This document shows, piece after piece, positions 23,061 through 61,400 of a stretch of 64,000 nucleotides of DNA. The stretch covers positions 12,890,356 through 12,954,355 of the forward strand of contig NC_069136.1 of the NCBI RefSeq assembly GCF_026914265.1, in the 5' to 3' direction. The position numbers were made by a program, and so were the translations under genes. A model generated the notes under the pieces. The model searched no databases. It was not told where the DNA came from and saw only the letters and a list, made by a program, of their open reading frames with translations. The stretch is from Mya arenaria. Lineage: Eukaryota > Mollusca > Bivalvia > Myida > Myidae. The first letter of the stretch is position 1, and every line of letters starts with the position of its first letter.

Positions 23061-24307
23061 TTTGAGTCGTAAAAGCTAATTGATCAAAATTGATTATCCG
23101 AAAATCGTTTAGCGTATCTCATCTTGGGTAACGCTGCGATTTTGACTTAAATCCAAATCTTCTGAAAGAAATTCTTTGCTTACCATTATTTTAATGGTGA
23201 GTTTATCCATCTAAGGCTCCACGCCAAAATCTTTTGGCTCTATCGCGAGTTAAGCATTTTTGCAACTATAACAAACTTTGTCTCCAAAGAATGTATTTGT
23301 ACACTTTATACGCTATCAATTATGTAAACAAAACGCGTTTTTGAAATCTATATTCTATATAAGGCTAACGCTTTAACTAAACAAAATTAGTATATTTATT
23401 TTACAAACAGGAGCAGGTCCAAGCCTGAGACAGAAATTGTAATCCGGATAAGTTTTATGTTTGAAAAATTAATGACCCTATGTAAATAAAGCACCATACA
23501 CCCTGCGCCTTGCCGTGATCACAGTGTTAAATAGTTTTATCAATAAAATCGCGATTGATTCATTAGCCAGTAAATGTTAAAATGGATAGTTTACCTTAAA
23601 AAAGACCTTGGACACTTTAAATTAACCAATTAAACCTGGTGAGGTTGTCACAATTTCAATATCGATTACATTTCAGATCACTTAAAAGTCAATAGTTATT
23701 ACATTCCCCTCTCGTAATTTTAACATTCGCCTCCCCAAACATTAATTTCTGCATTTATACTTTAAATTTGTGTTCACTTATGAATCTTATCTTATTTCGA
23801 GATATGGGTTTTAATGTGAATTTTTAAGACATCGATCTCAATATCCCCTGAGTTCAGTAAAGGATAAAAGTCGCTCACGTATACTTTAAGCGAACGTTAG
23901 CAAGCTGTTTCTTTGGCATCCAGGTTGCATCGCTGCGCTTACACTGCAAGCAGGGAACAAATTTTTTGAAAGGAAAAAAGTCCTCACGATTTAAATTATT
24001 TTCGGTGGCGATTCTAGCGGGGGCGCGGGGGGGGGGACAAGGGCCCGGGCCCCCAGGTGACCGACATTGAACCATAACACACCTTATATTAACCTTAATT
24101 TGTTACCTTATCAATTAAAACGCTGATTTATATAATTATATCAATAGTGAGTCATAGTGTTTCTTTCATATGTACGTTCACTATTTAAGATGTATAAAAC
24201 AATCGTGTCATTTCAAGACCTCAGTTAAAACAGGTTTAGTAGTGGGTAAGATGGTTGTGCCCTCCCCCCTCGGGCCTACTCAGATATGAATTTCTGGATC
24301 GGCCACT

Positions 24308-27282: not shown

Positions 27283-28065
27283 TAGTGATGGGAAATTATT
27301 GCCCACCTGATACCCTGCAGGACCACACCTTAACCCATCAGTGATAGGAAACTATTGCACGCCTTATTCCGTGCAGGACCACACCTTTACCAATCAGTGA
27401 TGGGAAACTATTGCACACCTTATTCTGTGCAGGGCCACACCTTAACCAATCAGTGATGGGGAACTATTGCACTCCAGATTCCGTGCTTGACCACAACTTA
27501 ACCCATCAGTGATGGGAAACTATTGCTCACGTGATTCTGTGCAGGACCACACCTTAACCAATCAGTGATGGGAAACTATTGCTCACCTGATACCCTGCAG
27601 GACCACACCTTAACCAATAAGTGATGGGGAACTATTGCTCACCTTATTCTGTGCAGGACCACACCTTAACCAATCAGTGATGGGGAACTATTGCTCACCT
27701 GATTCCGTGCAGGGCCACACCTTAACCAATCAGTGATGGGAAACTATTGCTCACGTGATTCTGTGCAGGGCCACACCTTAACCAGTCAGTGATGGGGAAC
27801 TATTGCTCACCTTATTCTGTGCAGGGCCACACCTTAGCCCATCAACCAATCACTGTTTCAGTACTATTTACACCATAAAACTAATTATACAATATCTGAC
27901 CTCATGGCATGTTTCTGTGATTAGATTCAGATTCAGTTCAGCGGGATCCAAAATATAATATTGTTTTATATAATAATTACTTTTTTACATAACGATAAAA
28001 CAAGAGGACAGTGATGGTAAACTATTGCTCACCTGATTCCGTGCTTGACCACACCTTAACCAATC
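27283..28065 (+). repeat. 56-bp minisatellite between duplicated flanks
   Basis: About ten units of cagtgatgggaaactattgc, tcacctgattctgtgcagga, ccacaccttaaccaat run to 27846. After a duplicated flank (gtactatttacaccataaaa through aacaagaggacagtgatgg) one more unit stands at 28008-28063. The flank at 27091-27290 is the matching partner. Confidence 0.9.
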
Positions 28066-36309: not shown

Positions 36310-39300
36310 GGTCTTCCTTGACCAATCAGCAGATTCTATGACCTGTTGTTACGACGCTCCTTTGAGAAGGGCCCATGATGGACCTACACTGCGTGTCGAG
36401 CGTCCTCTGATTCTCCCTGAAGTCTTGTTTTCTAACTTAAAAAAGAACTTGATTAATTCAACTAACCATTCAAATATGGTTTGGGATGAAACTGGTTGAT
36501 GAGGTTTCGTTCGTACCAAGAACAATTTACAACATCCTCGCCCGACTCTGTCTTTCTGAAAGATTCAGTTTTCCTTAGATAATAAGTCATAGCACGTTTA
36601 GGATCCAAAAACTTGTTTTGAGTTAACGCTGGCACAAAATGTGTTAAGCAAAATTGTTAGGTCGATATTGTTTAGATAACCCAAAGTCACACCCTGTTTC
36701 TGCACCTTGACAGAACCTTTTAAGGTCCTCAATGGAAATAAGCGTTCTCTGTGACCCTTTTTTGAGTTATCCTTGATGCTGTTGTGCAGGGCATGGACCA
36801 TTCATATTTGCATGTATGTAATATTTTTAGATAACTGTACATGTTGTTTTGATTGTCCATGTTATGCACTCATTGTCGAAATAAATCTATCTATCTATCT
36901 TTCACCTTAAGTTGCAGTGACTGAAGGTCACTATATCGTCGAAATGTTTTGGTAGCCAGTAAAAATATGATTTCCACGTTAAAAACATTTAAAGAGCATC
37001 ATTCAACGGCTTAAATGGTGCTTTCTTCAAACATCTAAAAACGAAAAAAGATCCTATTCAGGTACAAAGCGTTTTACTGGTGGCCACTCACTACATACAG
37101 CTCTTAGATAGGTAAACAAAATCAGCCGTAAGCTAGGGTGGCAAGATAGGGATCAATTTCCCTTTCATCACATTATCCAACGATTTGTCTGAACTTGCTT
37201 TTGTAATCTTTTGGTTGCCTGGTCTCGAGGATTTTGCCAATAACTTTCTAGTCCTTTTAGTAAAACCTTTAAATGAAAAACCTTCGATATCAGCCATGCA
37301 GTCAGATGAAGTGTTTTTGGGTGAGATATCTTTCCCAAGCACAGTGTTTACAGATCCTGACTGCATGGAAGTTTTCGTGGACAAGCTTTCAACATATCCA
37401 TCAGATGTGTTCACCAATGGGTTTTATGCCACTGTGGATCAATTAAGGTAATAGTACATTGAACATGTTGTAAATGACTCAGTACTTTGGGAATTTACTG
37501 TATTGGCGGAAACGCATACACAAACATGTTCTGCCATACAATTGACAGGTCGTCCATTGCAAAAGCTTGGGGATGTGGGATCCATAAACCGACCAGTGGC
37601 GTTTTCTTGTTTTGAAATTTGACAAAGAGCTCCAAACGTGGTTGACTAAAGAGCCTGAATATTTTCCAAGCCATTGCATTATTCAGGGACCACTCTGTTT
37701 GCCCGAGTATTTCCCGGCTCATCGTCTCCGCAAATACATTATTTACCCCCTTGATATGGACTGCTTTTAGCTTGATTTTGCTGTTCAAAGCTATCTGCCA
37801 TCGATCTCAGGTCTAATTGCACAACTGTACAGAATATGCCCCATCCGGGTGGTTTATGTATTGACATACAGTAGTGTTGTCTGACCAAATTAGATATTGA
37901 CCTTTTAGATGTGATAGGGCTTGCTGTATACTCAAAATCACAGACATCATTTCCAGGCAATTGATGTGCATTAACTTCTAAAGTTTGCTCCACTGACCTT
38001 GACAGATTGTTCATGTGACCACCCAAGCTCCATTTGCCACTGGCATCTGTGGTTATTGTAATGAGATACTGATCTGTCTGTAATAATTTGCCCTTGGCAA
38101 TGTTTTTATCCAGTAACCACCAATAAAAGGATTAACTATTTTTTAAAGATAGATTCATTCTTGAAGAAATATTTTTGTAGTAAATGAAGCGGAATTGATC
38201 AGATAGATTTGGAATCAGAGCCATGCGAAATGCAATCATGTTACTTCAGGTACTGATCTGACCCTTGAGGGGATTGGATACTGCCGACTTAAGATTTGTC
38301 AAGTCTCTCTATTGCCGGATAAACAATTCCGTTTGCTAGGTCGAACATGTCGCCTGTGTAAAATAGTGTCTGAACGGGTAGAAGTTGAGATTTTGACTTA
38401 TTTACTATGAAACCTAGATGGTAATGGAGACTGAGAATCGTTCCTCTGTTTTCTAAACTCATATTCTTTATTTGTTTGCTACTTCGACAAGGTAGCTCGC
38501 AAGACGAATAGTTTGCCTGCTTAGATATGCAACTTAAACTGAAATTATTTTCACAAAAAAATCTGGGCGCTCTCGTTGGGCCAAAACTGGCATACCACTC
38601 ATTGAAACAGGAAGTGGTGACATTGACGGTGTCCCTTGAAAATCCTTATATGAAAATAAGCATCTTTTACATATATCTTTATTGCCAAGTCTCCTTTCAA
38701 AATTGTTTCAGAACCTTTAACAATGTGTCCATTTTTAACTTCTTTTTGAGGAGATACTCGTTGAGGGGTTTCAAATTTATGACCGGTTTCATTTCTCCGT
38801 TCTTGTTATCTTGTTTGATTATTTCCAGTACTCATTTATTTGTGGTTATTTCCCCCTCTGACTGGAAGCAAGACAGCCCTACCCCACCCATGGGTATCTC
38901 CCGATGTTTTGCAACTATATTAACAGAGTCACTTTTCATCTATCTTTCCAGACTTTGCTCAAACCGGTCCTCGGCTTGTGAATGCAGGTCGTCTGGAGTA
39001 GCTTTTGTAGCCACCTTTTGATCTGGACTGAACTGGTTTCTGTTCAGATACTATGATATCACTTGACACTTTTAGGATACGAAAATTGTTCCACCTGTTA
39101 CTTGTGGCAGTGGAAGAAGATTTAGCATTTTGATAGTACAGTAATCAGCAGGTCTCTTGTTTGACTCGGACTGATAACTTGTGAATTTCCTTTTAAAGTC
39201 CTTCTTTTTCACATCAGGTATCAAATCGTCAATCTGCTTTTTTCTCCTTATGAGACTTCAGTAAAGCTTCTAAACCAGCCCAAAACAGACCGTCACCAGT

Positions 39301-40585: not shown

Positions 40586-43500
40586 CTGAAAATATATACA
40601 CAAAGTTGAGCAAATTTTGGTTGAAATAGTATTAAAACACAGTTGAGCAAAGTTTTGGTTAAAATAGTATTAAAACACAGTTGAGCAAAGTTTTGGTTAA
40701 AATAGTATTAAAACACAGTTGTGCAAAGTTTTGGTTGAAATAGTATTAAAATACAGTTGAGCAAAGTTTTGGTTAAAATAGTATTAAAACACAGTTGAGC
40801 AAAGTTTTGATTGAAAAAGTTTAAAACACAGTTGAGCAAAGTTTTGGTTGAAATAGTATTAAAATACAGTTGAGCAAAGTTTTGGTTAAAATAGTATTAA
40901 AACACAGTTGAGCAAAGTTTCGGTTAAAATAGTATTAATACAGTTGAGCAAAGTTTTGGTTGAAACAGTATTAAAACACAGTTGAGCAGAGTTTTGGTTG
41001 AAATAGTACTAAAACACAGTTGAGCAAAGTTTTGATTAGAACAGTATTAAAACACAGTTGAGCAAAGTTTTGATTAGAACAGTATTAAAACACAGTTGAG
41101 CAGAGTTTTGATTAGAACAGTATTAAAACACAGTTGAGCAAAGTTTTGATTAGAACAGTATTAAAACACAGTTGAGCAGAGTTTTGGTTGAAATAGTACT
41201 AAAACACAGTTGAGCAAAGTTTTGATTAGAACAGTATTAAAACACAGCTGAGCAAAGTTTTGATTAGAACAGTATTAAAACACAGTTGAGCAAAGTTTTG
41301 ATTAGAACAGTATTAAAACACAGTTGAGCAGAGTTTTGGTTGAAATAGTACTAAAACACAGTTGGGCAAAGTTTTGATTAGAACAGTATTAAAACACAGT
41401 TGAGCAAAGTTTTGATTAGAACAGTATTAAAACACAGTTGAGCAGAGTTTTGGTTGAAATAGTACTAAAACACAGTTGAGCAAAGTTTTGATTGAAAAAG
41501 TTTAAAACACAGTTGAGCAAAGTTTTGGTTAAAGCGTTATTAAAACACAGTTGAGCAAATTTTTGGTTGAAATAGTATTAAAACACAGTTGAGCAAAGTT
41601 TTAATTAGAACAGTATTAAAACACAGTTGAGCAGAGTTTTGGTTGAAATAGTACTAAAACACAGTTGAGCAAAGTTTTGATTGAAAAAGTTTAAAACACA
41701 GTTGAGCAAAGTTTTGGTTGAAGCGTTATTAATACATAGTTGAGCAAAGTTTTGGTTGAAATAGTTATAAAACACAGTTGAGCAGAGTTTTGGTTGAAAT
41801 AGTATTAAAACACAGTTGAGCAGAGTTTTGGTTGAAATAGTACTAAAACACAGTTGAGCAAAGTTTTGATTAGAACAGTATTAAAACACAGCTGAGCAAA
41901 GTTTTGATTAGAACAGTATTAAAACACAGTTGAGCAGAGTTTTGGTTGAAATAGTACTAAAACACAGTTGAGCAAAGTTTTGATTGAAAAAGTTTAAAAC
42001 ACAGTTGAGCAAAGTTTTGGTTGAAGCGTTATTAAAACACAGTTGAGCAAAGTTTTGGTTGAAATAGTTATAAAACACAGTTGAGCAAAGTTTTGGTTGA
42101 AATAGTACTAAAACACAGTTGAGCAGAGTTTTGGTTGAAATAGTACTAAAACACAGTTGAGCAAAGTTTTGATTGAAAAAGTTTAAAACACAGTTGAGCA
42201 AAGTTTTGGTTAAAGCGTTATTAAAACACAGTTGAGCAAAGTTTTGGTTGAAGCAGTATTAAAACACAGTTGAGCAGAGTTTTGGTTGAAGCATTATTAA
42301 AACACAGTTGAGCAAAGTTTTGGTTAAAGCGTTATTAAAACGCAGTTGAGCAAAGTTTTGGTTGAGGCGTTATTAAAACGCAGTTGAGCAAAGTTTTGGT
42401 TGAAGCATTATTAATACACAGTTGAGCAAAGTTTTGGTTGAAGCGTTATTAAAACGCAGTTGAGCAAAGTTTTGGTTGAAGCGTTATTAATACACAGTTG
42501 AGCAAAGTTTTGGTTGAAGCGTAATTAATACACAGTTGAGTAAAGTTTTGGTTGAAGCATTATTAATACACAGTTGAGCAAAGTTTTGGTTGAAGCATTA
42601 TTAATACACAGTTGAGCAAAGTTTTGGTTGAAGCGTTACTAAAACGCAGTTGAGCAAAGTTTTGGTTGAAGCGTTATTAATACACAGTTGAGCAAAGTTT
42701 TGGTTGAAGCGTTATTAATACACAGTTGAGCAAAGTTTTGGTTGAAGCGTTATTAAAACGCAGTTGAGCAAAGTTTTGGTTGAAGCATTATTAATACACA
42801 GTTGAGCAAAGTTTTGGTTGAAGCATTATTAATACACAGTTGAGCAAAGTTTTGGTTGAAGCGTTATTAAAACGCAGTTGAGCAAAGTTTTGGTTGAAGC
42901 GTTATTAATACACAGTTGAGCAAAGTTTTGGTTGAAGCGTTATTAATACACAGTTGAGCAAAGTTTTGGTTGAAGCGTTATTAAAACGCAGTTGAGCAAA
43001 GTTTTGGTTGAAGCATTATTAATACACAGTTGAGCAAAGTTTTGGTTGAAGCGTTATTAATACACAGTTGAGCAAAGTTTTGGTTGAAGCGTTATTAATA
43101 CACAGTTGAGCAAAGTTTTGGTTAAAACAGTATTAAAACACAGTTGAGGAACTTTTGTTGAAAACTGTTCGGTACAATTCCGTTTAATTTTTTTTAAATA
43201 CTAACAATGAAAATCTATTATCAATTATTAGAAAATCTATTATAAATTATCATTATGGAGGTTCCCTAAATAAAAAATGTTGTTTTTGTTTTACATTAAT
43301 TTTACATGTACATGCAGTTATACAAAGTACTTTTATAGGGCCCCGTCATGCCTGTCTGTTTTGCTACATTTTTGTGTGAATTGAACTTAAAACAACATTG
43401 AAAATGAACACTTAGTTGAGGAAATAATTTTTTTTATGTACTTTTATTTCTGATGTTTAAACAGATTTAAGATAATTAAAGTTACGACTAAAATCTTTTC

Positions 43501-49500: not shown

Positions 49501-51931
49501 AGGTGACCTGGGTTTGATTCCCCACCAGGGAGCATGTGAGATTGGTCATCAAACCGGACAAGAGGGTTTTCTCTGGGTACTCCAGTTTCCCCCCCACAAC
49601 ACAAAACCACACCCTTCTGTCACATTGTGCTAACAAGAGTGATTAATATAATGTTGTAAAAACTTGTTTCACAAGCGTTGTAAAATAAATACGGTAAAGC
49701 TTATTTATTTTACAATGCTCGTGAAACAAGACCTAAACCTACACTGTTAACAGTTTTCAATCATATTTTTGTCATAAGTGTGCTACTTTATAAACGACCC
49801 TCGTATACTAATTACTATCCAATTGCCCAATCCCCCTTACCCTTTCATGGCTATCAATATGGGCCTGGTATTTGTCCTCATCTTTATACCCACGGTCACA
49901 GATGTCACAGTAGAAACGGTTGTTCTCTGGCAGCTCTCTTTTATCTACCTTCACCTGTATCAAGCCAAACACAGCATTATTTTCTGTCTTCAATAAAAGA
50001 CCTCCCGTGTCAAGCAAAACACAGTGTAGTTTCTGTCTCTAGTTAAAGGTCACTCCTGTCAAGCAAAACACAGCGTTATATTCTGCCTTTATCTAAAAGT
50101 CACCTGTGTCAAGCAAAACACAGTGTTATTTTCTGTCTTTAATTAAAGGTCACTCGTGTCAAGCAAAACACAGCGTTATATTCTGCCTTTATCTAAAAGT
50201 CACCTATGTCAAGCAAAACACAGCGTTGTTTTCTGTCTTTAGTTAAAGGTCACTCTTGTCAAGCAAAATACTGCATTATATTCTGCCTTTATCTAAAAGT
50301 CACCTGTGTCAAGCAAAACACAGTGTTTTATTCTGCCTTTATCTAAAAGTCACCTGTGTCAAGCAAAACACAGCGTTATTTTCTGTCTTTAGTTAAAGGG
50401 CACTCTTGTCAGGCAAAACACAGCGTTATATTCTGCCTTTATCTAAAAGTCACCTGTGTCAAGCAAAACACAGCGTTATTTTCTGTATTTAGTTAAAGGT
50501 AGATCAACAGATACTGTGTTAGCAAATTTCTCATAAATGTTTTCTATGAAATGCTTCCAATGAATGGTAGAAATATTCATGACCAAAACTTAAGAGAAGG
50601 TTCAAGAACTGCAATTGAAAAGCACCTTTGCTTTTTCTTAATAAATCTTATATATATACATGTTTCTATTACAAGTAAAATCTTAATATAGTTCATCTTT
50701 ACATTTGAATGAAAACCATCAATTTAATTTGATCGTTGTTAAAGGCAAGTTCTACATGCATTTAATCCTATATCTTGAAAAAACAGATCAAGGCAATCCT
50801 AACATCTCAAAAGATTAAAGAACATTAAATATGTTATTCTTGTTGTGTTAAACGTTTTGTCAAAAATGCTTTCCGAATTGATAAATACAGCTTAACAAAC
50901 CTTCTTGTTTGGCTGGTGTTGCTGATTCCCCTGGTTGCCGTGAAATCTAGGTCGGTTTTGACCTGGTGACCTAAAAAATCTTGGCGGTCCCCCACCTGGA
51001 GTTTGTCCCCTGTGTTGGCCTTGGTTACCATGGTTATTCAACTGTGGTCTTCCCATTGGCCGATTCTGACCCCTGGGGTTGAACATTGGACCACACTGGT
51101 TATTTGGGGGAAAGTTTGGAGGAGGCCGTATTTGTGACATGTGGTTGTTGTTATTGTTGTTATGGTTTGGGCCACCACTTCCGAAGAAGTTGTTGTTGTT
51201 ATTGTTGTTGTAGTTTTGGCCGCCTGGTTGTATGTGGTTGCTGTTGTTTGGGCCACCTGGTGGTATGTTGTTGTGGTTGTTGTTAGGGCCGCCTGGTTGT
51301 ATGTGGTGGTTGTTGTTTGGGCCACCTGGTGGTATGTTGTTGTGGTTGTTGTTAGGGCCGCCTGGTTGCATGTGGTGGTTGTTGTTTGGGCCACCTGGTG
51401 GTATGTTGTTGTGGTTGTTAGGGCCGCCTGGTTGTATGTGGTGGTTGTTGTTGTAGTTTTGGCCACCTTGTCCTCTTGGTTGCCATTGTGTGTTATTCTG
51501 TAAATTTCAGCACATTGATATTTTATTTGAAAATTACATACTTATGCCAGAAGGCATTATCAAACATAATGAACCTATATTTATATATAAATACACAACT
51601 AAACAAGTATAATCAGGGGATTAATTAGCGCTCATATTACTGTACATTGGAGCAACAAAAATTCAAACAGAATTGACCACAAATTGTACACTAAACACTA
51701 CAAACACTCATGTCCCTTGATACTCTGCCAAGGTACTTGTTCTTTACCTACCATGGGAACACCAAATGTTTCCGGAAGGGCTGGAGGCCACTGTTGGTTG
51801 TAATACGGCGCCTGTGGTGGCGGCCTCTGAGGGTTAAATGATGGGGTTTGTGGTGGGAGTCCATTCATGTTAAACTGAGGTTGCCCACACTGCATCCCTG
51901 GTGATCTCATTCGCTGTTGGTATGGCTGCAT
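40487..51931 (-). CDS. NUFIP1: NUFIP1 homologue (FMRP-interacting zinc-finger RNA-binding protein)
   Basis: Ten coding exons on the minus strand: 51931-51752, 51497-50901, 49954-49841, 49104-49042, 47089-47007, 46720-46628, 45926-45619, 44612-44451, 44066-43874 and 40585-40487, about 630 residues. Family hallmarks appear in order: a Pro/Gln/Asn-rich N-terminus; a C2H2 finger (C275, C278, H291, H295) directly followed by a second (C298, C303, H315, H320) split over two exons; the NUFIP1 core EDIAKWREERKKNFPTAANI; FGKMRGR running into an RGG box; acidic Ser tracts; and the C-terminal LLEK + LLAKEIRQERNKIMQC motif. By family knowledge NUFIP1 binds FMRP and 15.5K/SNU13, helps assemble box C/D snoRNPs and can act in ribophagy. 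All junctions agree in phase except the last: exon 44066-43874 is one base short for the conserved C-terminal frame. The human protein is about 495 residues; the extra length lies in the N-terminal Asn/Gly repeats. Confidence 0.92.
40597..43150. repeat. 38-bp minisatellite filling the last NUFIP1 intron
   Basis: Roughly 65 units of the form ttaaaacacagttgagcaaa, gttttggttgaaatagta, with subtypes (gttttgattagaacagta; gttttggttgaagcgtta) in blocks and a few 31-bp short units. The array's left edge lies about 15-20 bases from the acceptor of the terminal NUFIP1 exon, and the flanking bases there (acaaagttgagcaaattttg) are a diverged unit. Open frames within it are array artefacts. Confidence 0.95.
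43621..43802 (-). mobile_element. pogo/Tigger-like MITE (copy 4)
   Basis: The copy begins TA then CAGTCGAAACC and ends AACTG then TA, so a TA target duplication is visible. Internal sequence (gatttctttatactgaatgt, cagggagttcaagccaacgg) matches the reverse complement of the three copies in the TRIM-like gene. It sits in the last NUFIP1 intron next to exon 44066-43874. Confidence 0.6.
47390..47545. repeat. long hairpin (foldback) element
   Basis: gtgtttattttgtatcaaat-ttattaaac is mirrored by gtttaataaatttgatacaa-aataaacac. A second inner pair is ataaaaacgaggctctgccg/agtttttattg, and outer agaatctgaaatta pairs with gaattttagattct. It lies in the NUFIP1 intron between exons 49104-49042 and 47089-47007. 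Confidence 0.8.
49225..49345 (+). mobile_element. 3' fragment of the GGGACTAGACACCAGAT MITE
   Basis: The stretch aatgatgtattatctgcctc through gggaccatctggtgtctaga matches the right third of the element at 33499-33964. Only this end is present. It lies in the NUFIP1 intron upstream of exon 49104-49042. Confidence 0.6.
49450..49690 (+). mobile_element. tRNA-derived SINE
   Basis: Box A-like GTGGTTAGGGC lies near 49475 and box B GGTTTGATTCC at 49511-49521, in tRNA-like spacing. A body with ctctgggtactccagtttcc and an AT-rich tail follows. It lies within the NUFIP1 intron between exons 49954-49841 and 49104-49042. Confidence 0.7.
49935..50510 (-). repeat. 50-bp minisatellite copied from a NUFIP1 3' splice site
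   Basis: About 11 units follow exon 49954-49841 in the upstream intron. On the minus strand each unit reads aacgctgtgttttgcttgac then acag and GTGACTTTTAGATAAA. The genuine junction reads cttgatacag then GTGAAGGTAGATAAA. So each unit holds the acceptor, the adjoining intron and about 15 nt of exon. Confidence 0.9.
50901..51497 (-). other. NUFIP1: NUFIP1 low-complexity exon with a coding tandem repeat
   Basis: This 597-nt exon is open in the gene frame for 199 codons. Its first half alternates QPGGPNNNH-type and PPGGPNNNHNN-type units, about 22 codons per pair, encoded by a near-perfect minisatellite. The second half is Pro/Gly/Arg/Asn-rich and ends QPNKK before donor GTTTGTTA. Such tracts suggest a disordered, phase-separating RNA-binding segment; that is inference. 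Confidence 0.85.
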
Positions 51932-55443: not shown

Positions 55444-58400
55444 ATGGCTGACTCATCACAGAAAGGAAGCAGTGATTGTCCAGAAAGAGATGCAAACTTC
55501 AATGATGTTCTCATTTTCTTGGCCAAGCACCAGTGGCTGTTTGATTTCAAACTCACCCACATCTTTGTGGATAAAATATGGGAACACATTCCAGATGAGG
55601 TCAAGACATAAGTGTTTCTTTTGCATTCAGTAATCAGTAAAAAGTACAGTTGTTTATATTTGATTTATGTACATATACGCCATACTACCCTATCAGTGGT
55701 TACTATAGCGACCTTATATACAAAAATATTTAATATATTTCTACAAAAGAATATATTGCAATTTCAATATACTTTTGAAAGTATTTCAACAAAATTTGGC
55801 TAAGATGGGACGTTGAGTAAACTTAAATTTGACAGTGTCTACCTATTTTTTGAATGGCCCTCGTACATACACATGTACTCTTTGCATACTTGTGGTAAGT
55901 TAAAGTGCCGTTACATAACCTGCTAGTGTCTCAAAACTGGCTACATATTCACACGCACATAAACAAGCATGCACACATGCACACTTACTATTTACTAACT
56001 CAAGCTATATGCAGGATCCTTTGAGCTTAATGTCCATAGTCTATGTACATGTTTATATTGAGGGCTCAGTGGATGATATTGTAACTGCATAAGGAAATGT
56101 AGGAGTCACATATGTTTAGTGCTTAGCCCTCACGTGCATACATCAAGAAGAATGTGACTACCCCTGTCTCTGTATGCAAATCACTGCCTTCCAAAACAAT
56201 CCTAGGAAACACTGAAGTACAAATGTACACATTAAATGTTATATGATTGTACTTGTCTCTTACTTCAGTGGCTTGAGTTGTTCCAGACATTGCCAGTAGA
56301 AGATCTTGCAGGCATTCCAGATGGAATAATACAGGTATTGTAATCTTGTAGGTGTCAGACCTTATTGGCATTCCAGATGGAATAATACAGGTATGGTAAC
56401 CTTGTAGGTGTCCGACCTTACAGGCAATCAGATGGCACAATACAGGTATGGTAATCTTGTAGGTGTCCGACCTTACAGTCAATCAGATGGCACAATACAG
56501 GTATGGTAATCTTGAAGGTATCAGGCCTAACAGGCATTCCAGATGAAACAATACAGGTATGGTAATCTTGTAGGTGTCAGACCTTACATGCATTCCAGAT
56601 GTTACAATACAGGTATGGTACTATTGAATGTATCAGGCCTTACATGCATTCCAGATGAAACAATACAGGTATGGTAATATTGTAGATGTCAGACCTTACA
56701 TGCATTACAGATGATACAATACAGGTATGGTAATCTTGTAGGTGTCAGACCTTACAGGTATTCCAGATGAAACAATACAGGTATGGTAATATTGTAGATG
56801 TCAGACCTTACAGGCATTCCAGGTGATACAGGTATGGTAATCTTGTAGGTGTCAAACCTTACAGGCATTCCAGATGAAACAATACAGGTATGGTAATATT
56901 GTAGATGTCAGACCTTACAGGCATTCCAGATGAAACAATACAGGTATGGTAATATTGTAGATGTCAGACTTTACAGGTATTCCAGATGAAACAATACAGG
57001 TATGGTAATATTGTAGATGTCAGACTTTACAGGCATTCCAGGTGATACAGGTATGGTAATCTTGTAGGTGTCAAACCTTACAGGCATTCGAGATGAAACA
57101 ATACAGGTATGGTAATATTGTAGATGTCAGACCTTACAGGTATTCCAGATGAAACAATACAGGTATGGTAATATTGTAGATGTCAGACTTTACAGGCATT
57201 CCAGGTGATACAGGTATGGTAATCTTGTAGGTGTCAAACCTTACAGGCATTCCAGATGAAACAATACAGGTATGGTAATATTGTAGATGTCAGACCTTAC
57301 AGGCATTCCAGGTGATACAGGTATGGTAATCTTGTAGGTGTCAGACCTTACAGGCATTCTAGGTGATACAATACAGGTATGGTAATATTGTAGGTGTCAG
57401 ACCTTACATGCATTCCAGATGGAACAATACAGGTATGGTAGTCTTGTAGGTGTCAGAGCTTACTTGCATTCTAGGTGATACAATACAGGTATGGTAATAT
57501 TGTAGGTGTCAGACCTTACAGGCATTCCAGATGGAACAATACAGGTATGGTAATCTTGTAGGTGTCAGACCTTCCAGGCATTCCAGATGAAACAATACAG
57601 GTATGGTAATCTTGTAGGTGTCAGACCTTACATGCATTCCAGATGGAACAATACAGGTATGGTAATATTGTAGGTGTCAGACCTTCCAGGCATTCCAGAT
57701 GGAACAATACAGGTATGGTAATCTTGTAGGTGTCAGAGCTTACTGGCATTCTAGATGAAACAATACAGGTATGGTAATATTATAGGTGTCAGACCTTCCA
57801 GGCATTCCAGATGGAACAATACAGGTATGGTAATCTTGTAGGTGTCAGAGCTTACTGGCATTCCAGATGAAACAATACAGGTATGGTAATCTTGTAGGTG
57901 TCAGACCTTACATGCATTCCAGATGTTACAATACAGGTATGGTACTATTGAATGTATCAGGCCTTACATGCATTCCAGATGAATCAATACAGGTATGGTA
58001 ATATTGTAGGTGTCAGACCTTCCAGGAATTCCAGATGAAACAATACAGGTATGGTAATCTTGTAGGTGTCAGATCTTATTGGAATTCTATGTGGAATAAT
58101 ACAGGTATGGAAATCTTGTAGGTGACAGGCCTTACAGACATTCCATATGGAACAATACAGGTATAGTTATCTTGAAGAAGTCAGATCTTACAGGCTACTT
58201 GCCTTAAGACCATTGCTCGACCATTTATAGGGACTTGTTATGCATGAAAGCTTGTACAATTTATGCACTCATATATGTTCAATGCAATTTTTTGTGTTGT
58301 TTTTTCAGGAAGGATGGCCAGTGTCACTGAAAGAGTTTGCGACAACTTGCTTACAGTTCTCATTGAAACGAGAACAAACTACAGACTTCCCGCAATGCCT

Positions 58401-61400
58401 AGATCAAAGAAAAACAAAACAATTTCAGACAAAACCCATTGAAAGTGAAAATGTGATAGAAAAAGTCCAGCTAGGTAGTAAGATGTGTAAAAGGAAAGCC
58501 ACATGTAGACCTCTAGATCCTGGTGATATTCCCAAGGAAATAAAAAATGGGATGGCACCAAAGAAGCTGCATGAGGTGTGTCACATGACCAGCTTGGTTG
58601 CTACGCTAACTCAGAAAACAGGAAATGATGTCATTGTGGATGTGGGCTCAGGACTGGTAATATTATTTTGAGGTTTTATTCATTTTAAGATAAATGCATT
58701 GCTGGCACCTGGTACTTCAATTCTGTTAATTTTGTTTACATTTCTTTTATAGTTTAGATGTGATGGTCATTCTGAATATACGTTTTATTGACACTAACTT
58801 TATACATTTTTAGCTGAGCCAAAAAAAAATCCAGGCATGCAGTGGATTAATTTTAATAATTATAATAATTTTAATATAGAGTCATTGGTGCCATCAACAC
58901 ATGTATCATATGATAGCCTTTTTTCAAAATAACATTTCTAAAAAGTTCTACTTCCTTGTTTGAAACTAAAAGGTATATTGGTCTGTTTAGGCAAATGTCA
59001 TTTAATTTTGTAAGTAAAACATTCAACTTGATTTTTTGCCACTTACTTGTAGTTGATATTTAACTTAAATTCTTGATAGTAATGATTCTTTGCTCAATGA
59101 TAAGGTGACCACATAATCTCCATGGATATGATGGCAAGGGCACAGTCTCATATCTGAGTCTGAGTCCAGACTCTGAAAAGCACTTTCATTAAATTATATA
59201 GAATCACTTTTATTTCATTGGTTTTTACAAAAAATGAATGGAAAAAACTGTACCATTTCAAATACCGGTAGTAATAAAAGTCAGCAAAGTCCATATTCCA
59301 TAATCAATGCTCAAGTTGAAGGAAAGTTACAAAATGAAATGAAGATTTGCAGTTAAGCCACTTGAGATTGAACTCACACTTGAGTTTTTTTGCAATCATG
59401 GCCCGTGGTGCTCATTTTTGTTAACTTGTACATGTATGTTGCCAGGGATACCTAGGCCAGGTACTACATCATTACTGGGGGTTTCCCGTACTTGGCTTGG
59501 AGAGCAAGCATTGTCACTCCACTGGGGCAGACAAACGGACAGCAAAATTGGGTAATGATGTACAGTAATCAAAACTTGGATTTTATTTACCAAGCCTGAA
59601 TACTTATTTGTTAAGTATATATTTTGAGTACTTACTTATTTTTATGTTAAAATTATAACTAGTGTTTTTTGGCTTGCAGGTTTGTATGAAACTGCATGCT
59701 TAAATATCAATCAAATTGTGAATAGACAAGCGCTTATGGAATTTGTTGTCATACATTTCAAACCTTTGATTTAAAATCCACCATTGTCTATTTAATTGCA
59801 AAGATATCATGCTTACCATCATGGGAGGCATGGTATACATCTGACCCTCGGTAATCAGTTTTGGAGAAACCAGGAGCACCCTGACCATACCCACTGACCA
59901 CAAACTAGTCGCATACACCCAGGTCGGGAATCAAACCCGCGGATGCCTGACTACAAAGCCAGTCCACTAACCAGGGGTTTCATAACCTGAAATTTTCTTT
60001 TTGATGATGTCATTCATATACTAAATTAAAGATAAAATGTGTTGGAATAGTTAAAGAACATAATTAAGTCAAAGGACCAATTTTAAAAATATTCTATTCT
60101 TTACCTGAGGTCTCATTATCAATCGATATGGAAATCACAAAAACAACTACACATAGAATTCCTCATTCTCATTGGACTATGGTACATCTTGAAGGAAAAT
60201 GGTTGTTAAATATATCTTCTTATTTCAGATGAATGCCCGTATCTCAGCAATGTGACATGTGAGCTAACTCCAGATGAACAGTCGAAGGCAGAGTTCTCTG
60301 ACCTGTTCCATGAATGGTATTCTAAGATAAGGGAATTCAAATGTGTTTGCTCTAAAAGTTCATATACTAAATTGAAAGAAAGTGACAACTGTTGTAGAAA
60401 AGAATGCTCAAATATCCCTGAACTTTGTGATTCTTCCCCGTATAGTTCGGGGAATGACAAAAATTGCAGTAATTGTTGTAACAAATTGTCCTCAAAACAT
60501 TGTGATTTGTTGCCAGATAGTTCAGGGACTGCTAGTGAGGAAGTTGGCAAAAAAAACCCAGAAGACCTCTTAGTGAGCAGCTCTGATATAAATGGTGCAA
60601 CACAGAAAAGTACTAAGTCTGCAGAAAATTGTGAAAACAATGAACATTTTTTTGTTGATATTCAAAAAGATTCTCCATACTGTACCATGCACAATAACCA
60701 CAGTTGTCCTGGTAACTGTCATCATGGCAACAGTTGTCATGGAAACAATTCTGATGAGGCCCAGGTGTGCATGATAGGACTCCATTGTTGTGGGGACCTA
60801 ACGCCGACAATGCTAGAACATTTTGTGAACACCGACTGGATAACCTCCCTTGTTTGTGTCAGCTGCTGCTACCATCGCATGGAATACGCTGGTGAGATAC
60901 TGTAATCTTTTGCTTTTTCGTTATGTTATTGAATACGGGTATAAAGGGCTTATCACTTCAAGGTACTTGTGTTAGACTTTTTTTAGTCCATGTCGCACGA
61001 GATTGTTCAAGACTAAAGGAATTTGGAAGTGAAAAAATCTCAAAGATCAACTGACAAACATAATATTATTTTCATTTCATACCTAAACAGTATATATATT
61101 TTTTTTAATTAATTTGAAATTTGACCAAAAAAATGCCTTTTACTTTCGTGTAGTATTGTAAAAGCAGATTTGCGCATGCGATTTTTGGGCTACTGTGTGG
61201 AAAGCTACTGTGTGTCCTTATCATATGTTTTATCATATGTTTAAATCTCGCAATAGATTAGAGAGAAGCTTAAAAGGTATGAAATCAACTCATTTTTCAT
61301 GTTAGTATTAGAATCGTAAATGTTTAATTCATGCAATACAGTAGACCAAAGTTTAACAGGTATGAAATAAAAAAAAATCTGAGTGTTAAGAATATGATAT

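Follow-up and report, generated by a model that had tools for sequence, protein, structure and literature searches.

The window that we analyzed is a stretch of 64,000 nucleotides from the genome of the bivalve Mya arenaria, and it contains a gene that we call METTL25, a name taken over from the preliminary description. When exons 1–4 were joined, residues 159–226 of the translation matched the Pfam family Methyltransf_32, and splicing of exon 2 to exon 3 (58309) keeps the reading frame. A search of the genome with the protein sequence returned the four exons and one weak match on contig C3, with no retrocopy that could serve as a fossil of splicing; judged by these matches, METTL25 appears to be a single-copy gene. 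Searches of the PDB with a METTL25 fragment and with the exon of one of the arrays described below (L040) gave no useful match.

The second intron of METTL25 carries a minisatellite that starts within exon 2. The acceptor of this intron, at 58308 (TTTTTTCAG), is separated from the end of the array by approximately 110 bp and does not resemble the repeat unit. In exon 1, CATTCCAGATGAG stands directly before the donor (55591–55599), and the 11-mer CATTCCAGATG is common to exon 1 and the repeat unit (56311–56321), through either chance or an old duplication.

Table 1. The METTL25 locus and junction arrays in the window and on contig C2 (window positions unless a contig is named)
Feature	Position	Strand	Basis
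Window, M. arenaria genome	C15:12890356-12954355		
METTL25 exon 1, coding part from the ATG	55444..55599	+	In-frame splice model
METTL25 exon 2, 66 nt, phase 0, C-terminal GIPDGIIQ	56269..56334	+	In-frame splice model
Unit 1, spanning the real end of exon 2 (34 nt exonic, 22 nt intronic); GTATTG at 56335 is the true donor	56301..56356	+	Donor-based cutting, exon alignment
Stop codon TAA in the exon 2 frame, 6 nt beyond the true donor and ahead of all decoy donors	56341..56343	+	Read-through of exon 2 (GTA TTG TAA)
Units 2-34, 33 decoy donors (32 CAGGTATGG, 1 CAGGTATAG)	56357..58182	+	Donor-based cutting, donor count
Partial unit of 12 nt, downstream end of the array, AGATC as in the exon	58183..58194	+	Donor-based cutting
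METTL25 exon 3	58309..58656	+	In-frame splice model; acceptor outside the array
Probable acceptor-junction array, 50-bp units, 10.7 copies; the acceptor of a zinc-finger exon is presumed to lie in the last unit	49951..50485	-	TRF, Pfam zf-C2H2_jaz
Saposin-like donor array, 21-bp units, after exon end ...CDICIIVVQRLEQLLANASQ	C2:30002814-30002992 (L025 2814-2992)	-	Exon match, SapB_1
Saposin-like acceptor array, ~18 units of 56 bp	C2:30009800-30010825 (L025/L026)	-	Exon match, SapB_1

Anatomy and splice sites of the METTL25 array

TRF placed the array at 56301–58195 (period 56, 34.2 copies, 87% matches). Cutting at the donors gave 34 units between 56301 and 58182, within the range of 30–35 given in the preliminary description, followed by a 12-nt tail (AGATCTTACAGG); 28 of the units are 56 bp long, four are 51 bp, and two are 55 bp. 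The last 34 nt of exon 2 match the array at 31 positions, and the alignment ends exactly at the junction. Its score was 53, and the maximum obtained with shuffled exons was 30 (0/2000 and 0/1000 shuffles). The core of the preliminary description was therefore read correctly: the donor junction of exon 2 was the seed of the array, unit 1 is the real end of the exon, and the units share exon-derived sequence beyond chance (0/2000 in the shuffle test), although the shared stretch is 34 nt rather than 24 nt.

The order of variants along the array agrees with this origin. In columns 4 and 27, the exon has special states that are found again only in units 2 and 33 (for column 4, also in the tail), and the interior holds other column states and copied blocks: units 6 and 30 are identical, and units 9–11, 13–15, and 16–18 repeat the same unit order. 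Exon-specific states near both ends combined with copied blocks between them are the pattern expected if the exon gave rise to the array and turnover then took place in the interior. A DNA search of the genome with the METTL25 junction gave at least 28 matches, and among the matches listed all were inside the array; such a search scores the best candidates only, so this number is not proof of rarity elsewhere. It is extremely improbable that the end of the exon was instead derived from a pre-existing repeat or that the array is an assembly error. Arrays of this kind are hard to assemble, and a single assembly was used, but no copy of the unit lies outside the array among the matches listed, the METTL25 exon is in frame on both sides, and in two sister cases described below, residues conserved within a protein family fall in the repeated part of the exon.

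The donor 9-mer is CAGGTATGG in 32 units, CAGGTATTG at the true donor, and CAGGTATAG in the last unit, and the core CAG/GTAT (slash, splice junction), and hence AG/GT, is intact in 34/34 units. The claim that every unit holds a donor thus stands. The accompanying claim that every unit holds the sequence CTTACAG does not, because the exact motif is found in 13/34 units; this stretch, which had been placed before the exon-like part, is itself exon-derived, and its AG comes from coding sequence. The decoy acceptor AG is kept in 22/34 units if the exon's own CTTGCAG is counted and is lost in the other 12.

Each unit had been described as a potential micro-exon with its own 3' splice site. A stretch from AG to donor does exist in 22/34 units, and whereas any inclusion had been expected to shift the frame, the micro-exons of the four 51-bp units (18 nt, AFQVIQ) would keep it. 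Against the idea that units of 18–23 nt are used as exons in some transcripts, the alignment of the units shows by eye no pyrimidine tract of note before the AG, the AG itself is lost in 12/34 units, and exons of 18–23 nt are hard for exon definition. We consider such a micro-exon mosaic quite unlikely. A related alternative is recursive splicing, in which each ATACAG/GTATGG would act first as an acceptor and then as a donor, so that the intron is removed stepwise. AG/GT is present in every unit, and in genes built of tandem repeats, such as UBC, AGGT sites can serve as either acceptor or donor, as far as the accessible text of that study goes (PMC10809524). However, the pyrimidine tract expected before the AG of a dual-specific site was not seen by eye, where the sequence is purine-rich instead, and we regard this alternative as very improbable.

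We computed duplex energies of the donors with the 5' end of U1. The values were -8.0 kcal/mol for the true donor, -9.1 kcal/mol for the 32 common decoys, and -8.3 kcal/mol for the last decoy; the true donor lacks the +5 G that is present in the common decoys. Because pairing with U1 is slightly stronger for the common decoys, strength alone would not favor the first donor, which the spliceosome would nevertheless have to single out among the copies, as the preliminary description supposed. Judged by length, 12/34 donors, with the true donor counted, would preserve the frame, but the in-frame stop still lies ahead of all 33 decoys. Because this UAA is only 6 nt past the exon, the use of a decoy donor should be non-productive.

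Junction arrays elsewhere in the genome

Besides the METTL25 array, the same genome contains at least seven donor-junction arrays and one clear acceptor-junction array. We screened 200 kb chosen arbitrarily (C1:10.0–10.1 Mb and C2:30.0–30.1 Mb), which held 28 arrays with a period of 12–120 and at least four copies; the window held eight. Two of the 28 were junction arrays, and a single saposin-like gene on C2 contains them both. In the donor array of this gene, the homology to the exon covers only 13 nt, 12 of them matching (shuffle p 0.007), and the exon has a SapB_1 match below the Pfam cut-off (E 0.0058). The acceptor array repeats the opening 31 nt of the exon with 31/31 positions matching, most of its units have a pyrimidine-rich 3' site by eye, and the SapB_1 match of the exon (4.7e-6) is above the cut-off. 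A screen of 54 arrays of at least 2.8 copies pointed to further weak candidates, on the acceptor side four arrays on C1 and the array at 27284, and on the donor side the arrays at 24307 and 51197. The array at 27284–27844 was also considered as a donor array and rejected: a donor-like stretch is present on its minus strand, but the upstream open frame is only 5 codons long.

We also searched the genome with tripled donor patterns. The complete listing for the 10-mer ACAGGTAAGT x3 had 95 matches at 16 loci, which we grouped ourselves into 14 families, reading one locus per family. Four of the 14 were anchored in an exon (L054, L057, L059, and L062), five had no exon (L036, L045, L056, L058, and L063), and for five the fetched piece stopped short of the 5' edge of the array (L052, L053, L055, L060, and L061). 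Among the matches listed for AGGTAAGT x3 and CAGGTATGG x3 (on C1 and C2), we read 10 and 3 array loci, respectively, leaving aside near-copies, tRNA-like loci, very short-period arrays, and some other listed arrays; L040 and L051 from these listings were exon-anchored. Altogether, of 25 array loci read (with L036 and L045 counted once), six were exon-anchored, 13 had no exon, and the edge was not reached in six (L043 and the five above). Near-copies were also among the listed matches, for L051 at C2:59.58 Mb and for L057 at C11:19.246 Mb. In the L040 array, distal units (L048, C1:39077016–39077275) have altered donors (GAGGCAAGT and similar), which indicates that decoys can decay at the far end.

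In each of the eight donor arrays, the end of the best exon match coincides exactly with the donor. The exon of L059 encodes a Pfam zinc finger above the cut-off; no Pfam match above the cut-off was found for L040, L051, L054, and L057, and no match of any kind for L062, the exon of which we take by eye to resemble a thrombospondin type 1 repeat. These five are regarded as exons because of an open frame bounded by an AG upstream and a donor downstream. Conserved zinc finger residues in L059 and conserved saposin residues lie partly inside the repeated parts of the exons, which indicates that in these cases the exon came first. A stop precedes the second donor in the true frame of 8/8 donor arrays, compared with 8/16 alternative frames, an excess that is suggestive only, because early stops are frequent in introns and GTAA provides its own stop in phase 2. 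When one typical decoy per array was compared with the true donor, U1 pairing of the decoy was as good in four of the eight arrays and better in the other four.

We claim no enrichment of arrays with donor motifs, because the backwards-motif controls, with overlapping matches counted, disagreed between motifs (2102 versus 1317 matches for AGGTAAGT x3, 401 versus 512 for CAGGTATGG x3, and 95 versus 91 for ACAGGTAAGT x3). The acceptor pattern TTTTTGCAGG x3 gave two matches, and its backwards control gave three. With 28 arrays in 200 kb and eight in the window, some should span junctions by chance. Random tandem duplication, tolerated as long as the exon stays whole, is the simplest account of the recurrence.

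Sequence turnover, origin, and related systems

We built a FastTree phylogeny of the 34 METTL25 units, counted changes per column, and applied a permutation test to the longest unchanged run. There were 68 changes over 56 columns, and 11 consecutive columns (AATACAG/GTAT) had none (p 0.0002); in five control arrays from the window, the longest unchanged runs were of 1–6 columns (p 0.86–1.0). This invariance, together with the absence of the +5 G from the true donor, could be taken to mean that the decoys are under selection as a platform for U1 or another reader of CAGGTA, helping to define a weak exon, damping premature polyadenylation, or setting METTL25 output through copy number. The other measurements speak against this idea. 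The 8-nt donor core of METTL25 had two changes compared with 9.4 expected, but 14% of the 8-column blocks of the unit do equally well. Across all eight donor arrays, METTL25 included, the core had 29 changes compared with 37.7 expected, with no deficit in L040, L051, or L059, and for the saposin array the acceptor core had five changes compared with 3.1. On the basis of these counts, we rejected constraint on decoy donors as a property of the class. Gene conversion may also have produced the invariance, which is peculiar to METTL25 among the 14 arrays examined and for which we claim no function; selection on the decoys is, in our judgment, unlikely.

We favor, with a probability of roughly three in four, the interpretation that the METTL25 array is a tandemly duplicated junction segment that was amplified within the intron, a mostly tolerated passenger and one of a recurrent class. 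A 56-bp segment across the exon 2/intron 2 junction (34 + 22 nt) would have been duplicated in tandem, amplified, and partly homogenized to 34 units. The exon would have stayed whole because the new copies all lie on the intron side of the true donor. Productive mRNA would need the first donor, and use of a later one would retain GTA TTG TAA, end the frame after two codons, and presumably lead to nonsense-mediated decay, so the array may lower the output of the gene or add noise to it. Two observations run counter to this interpretation: the 11 unchanged donor columns exceed the expectation for a pure passenger, and U1 pairing is slightly better for the common decoys. Overall, the array has the appearance of a side effect that repeat growth has produced repeatedly, and not of a designed switch.

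The METTL25 array is also a member of a recurrent class of junction-seeded minisatellites that includes donor and acceptor sides. Two such arrays in an arbitrary 200 kb, exon anchoring in 4/14 ACAGGTAAGT families, and a stop in 8/8 true frames incline us, with less assurance, to the broader proposal that this genome has hundreds or more of them, in which a real splice site would face up to dozens of copies and the array would persist through an in-frame stop. That such arrays recur in several genes suggests frequent tolerance of tandem duplications that span a splice junction. If the class is genome-wide, each array would be a natural experiment in splice-site competition. Studies of the choice between identical splice sites mostly use artificial minigenes in which a site is present in two or three copies; the METTL25 intron has 34 donors with an identical core, and the saposin-like intron has ~18 near-identical acceptors. 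If METTL25 splicing uses the first donor in preference to decoys that are no weaker, position or exon definition would outweigh strength; if it does not, copy number would be a natural dial for the output of the gene.

The minisatellite of the human gene IFI6 (G1P3, 6-16) has a unit of 12 bp, a multiple of three. It is said to contain multiple splice donors, a description credited to Turri, Cuin, and Porter in 1995 (NAR 23:1854). According to the available part of a further report, two downstream units serve as donors, giving three mRNA species (PMC4526556). In both genes, a minisatellite is a source of several donors, and the METTL25 array starts at a real exon end with the true donor in unit 1. 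It differs from IFI6 in its 56-bp unit, its 34 donors, and the stop that would be met if a decoy were used. In genes of human segmental duplications, internal tandem repeats at exon-intron boundaries alter splicing or form new introns; as described in the accessible text, they average ~4 units of 30 bp in recent primate paralogues, compared with 34 units in an apparently single-copy gene here (PMC2812944). Tandem duplication of a segment containing AGGT is a route to intron gain, in the part of that study open to us, and a duplicated segment containing AG/GT is what METTL25 has in common with it (PMC3443670; see also PMC4974935). In METTL25, however, the acceptor of intron 2 is not part of the array and differs from the unit, so that the two ends of the intron are not copies of one duplicated segment, and there is no indication of a new intron. 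The dual-specific AGGT arrays of polyubiquitin UBC, as they appear in the sections available, have AGGT head to tail in every unit, as in METTL25, but their units are coding and a multiple of three, whereas those of METTL25 are intronic and contain a stop (PMC10809524). Intronic minisatellites in earthworm metallothionein are described with no stated tie to splice sites in the accessible portion of that paper (PMC12783039). Among the matches listed in our literature search, which was thin in subscription journals, there was no report of junction-seeded arrays in a mollusc. The METTL25 array thus belongs to a known kind with an unusual copy number; what is new is the recurrence within one invertebrate genome and the mirror image on the acceptor side.

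Further features of the window

The array at 49951–50485 adjoins an exon of a zinc-finger gene that we presume to be NUFIP1-like, and its position makes it a probable acceptor-side counterpart of the METTL25 array within the window. We rejected it as a fully exon-derived case because its similarity to the exon body is weak (p 0.079; p 0.016 with a start off the junction). A repeat whose units are rich in PGG and N lies within the NUFIP1-like open frame (51197–51452, minus strand). Open frames at 37498–38645 (minus strand) resemble, by eye, what we take to be retroelement fragments, and a 38-bp array of ~68 copies occupies 40600–43163.
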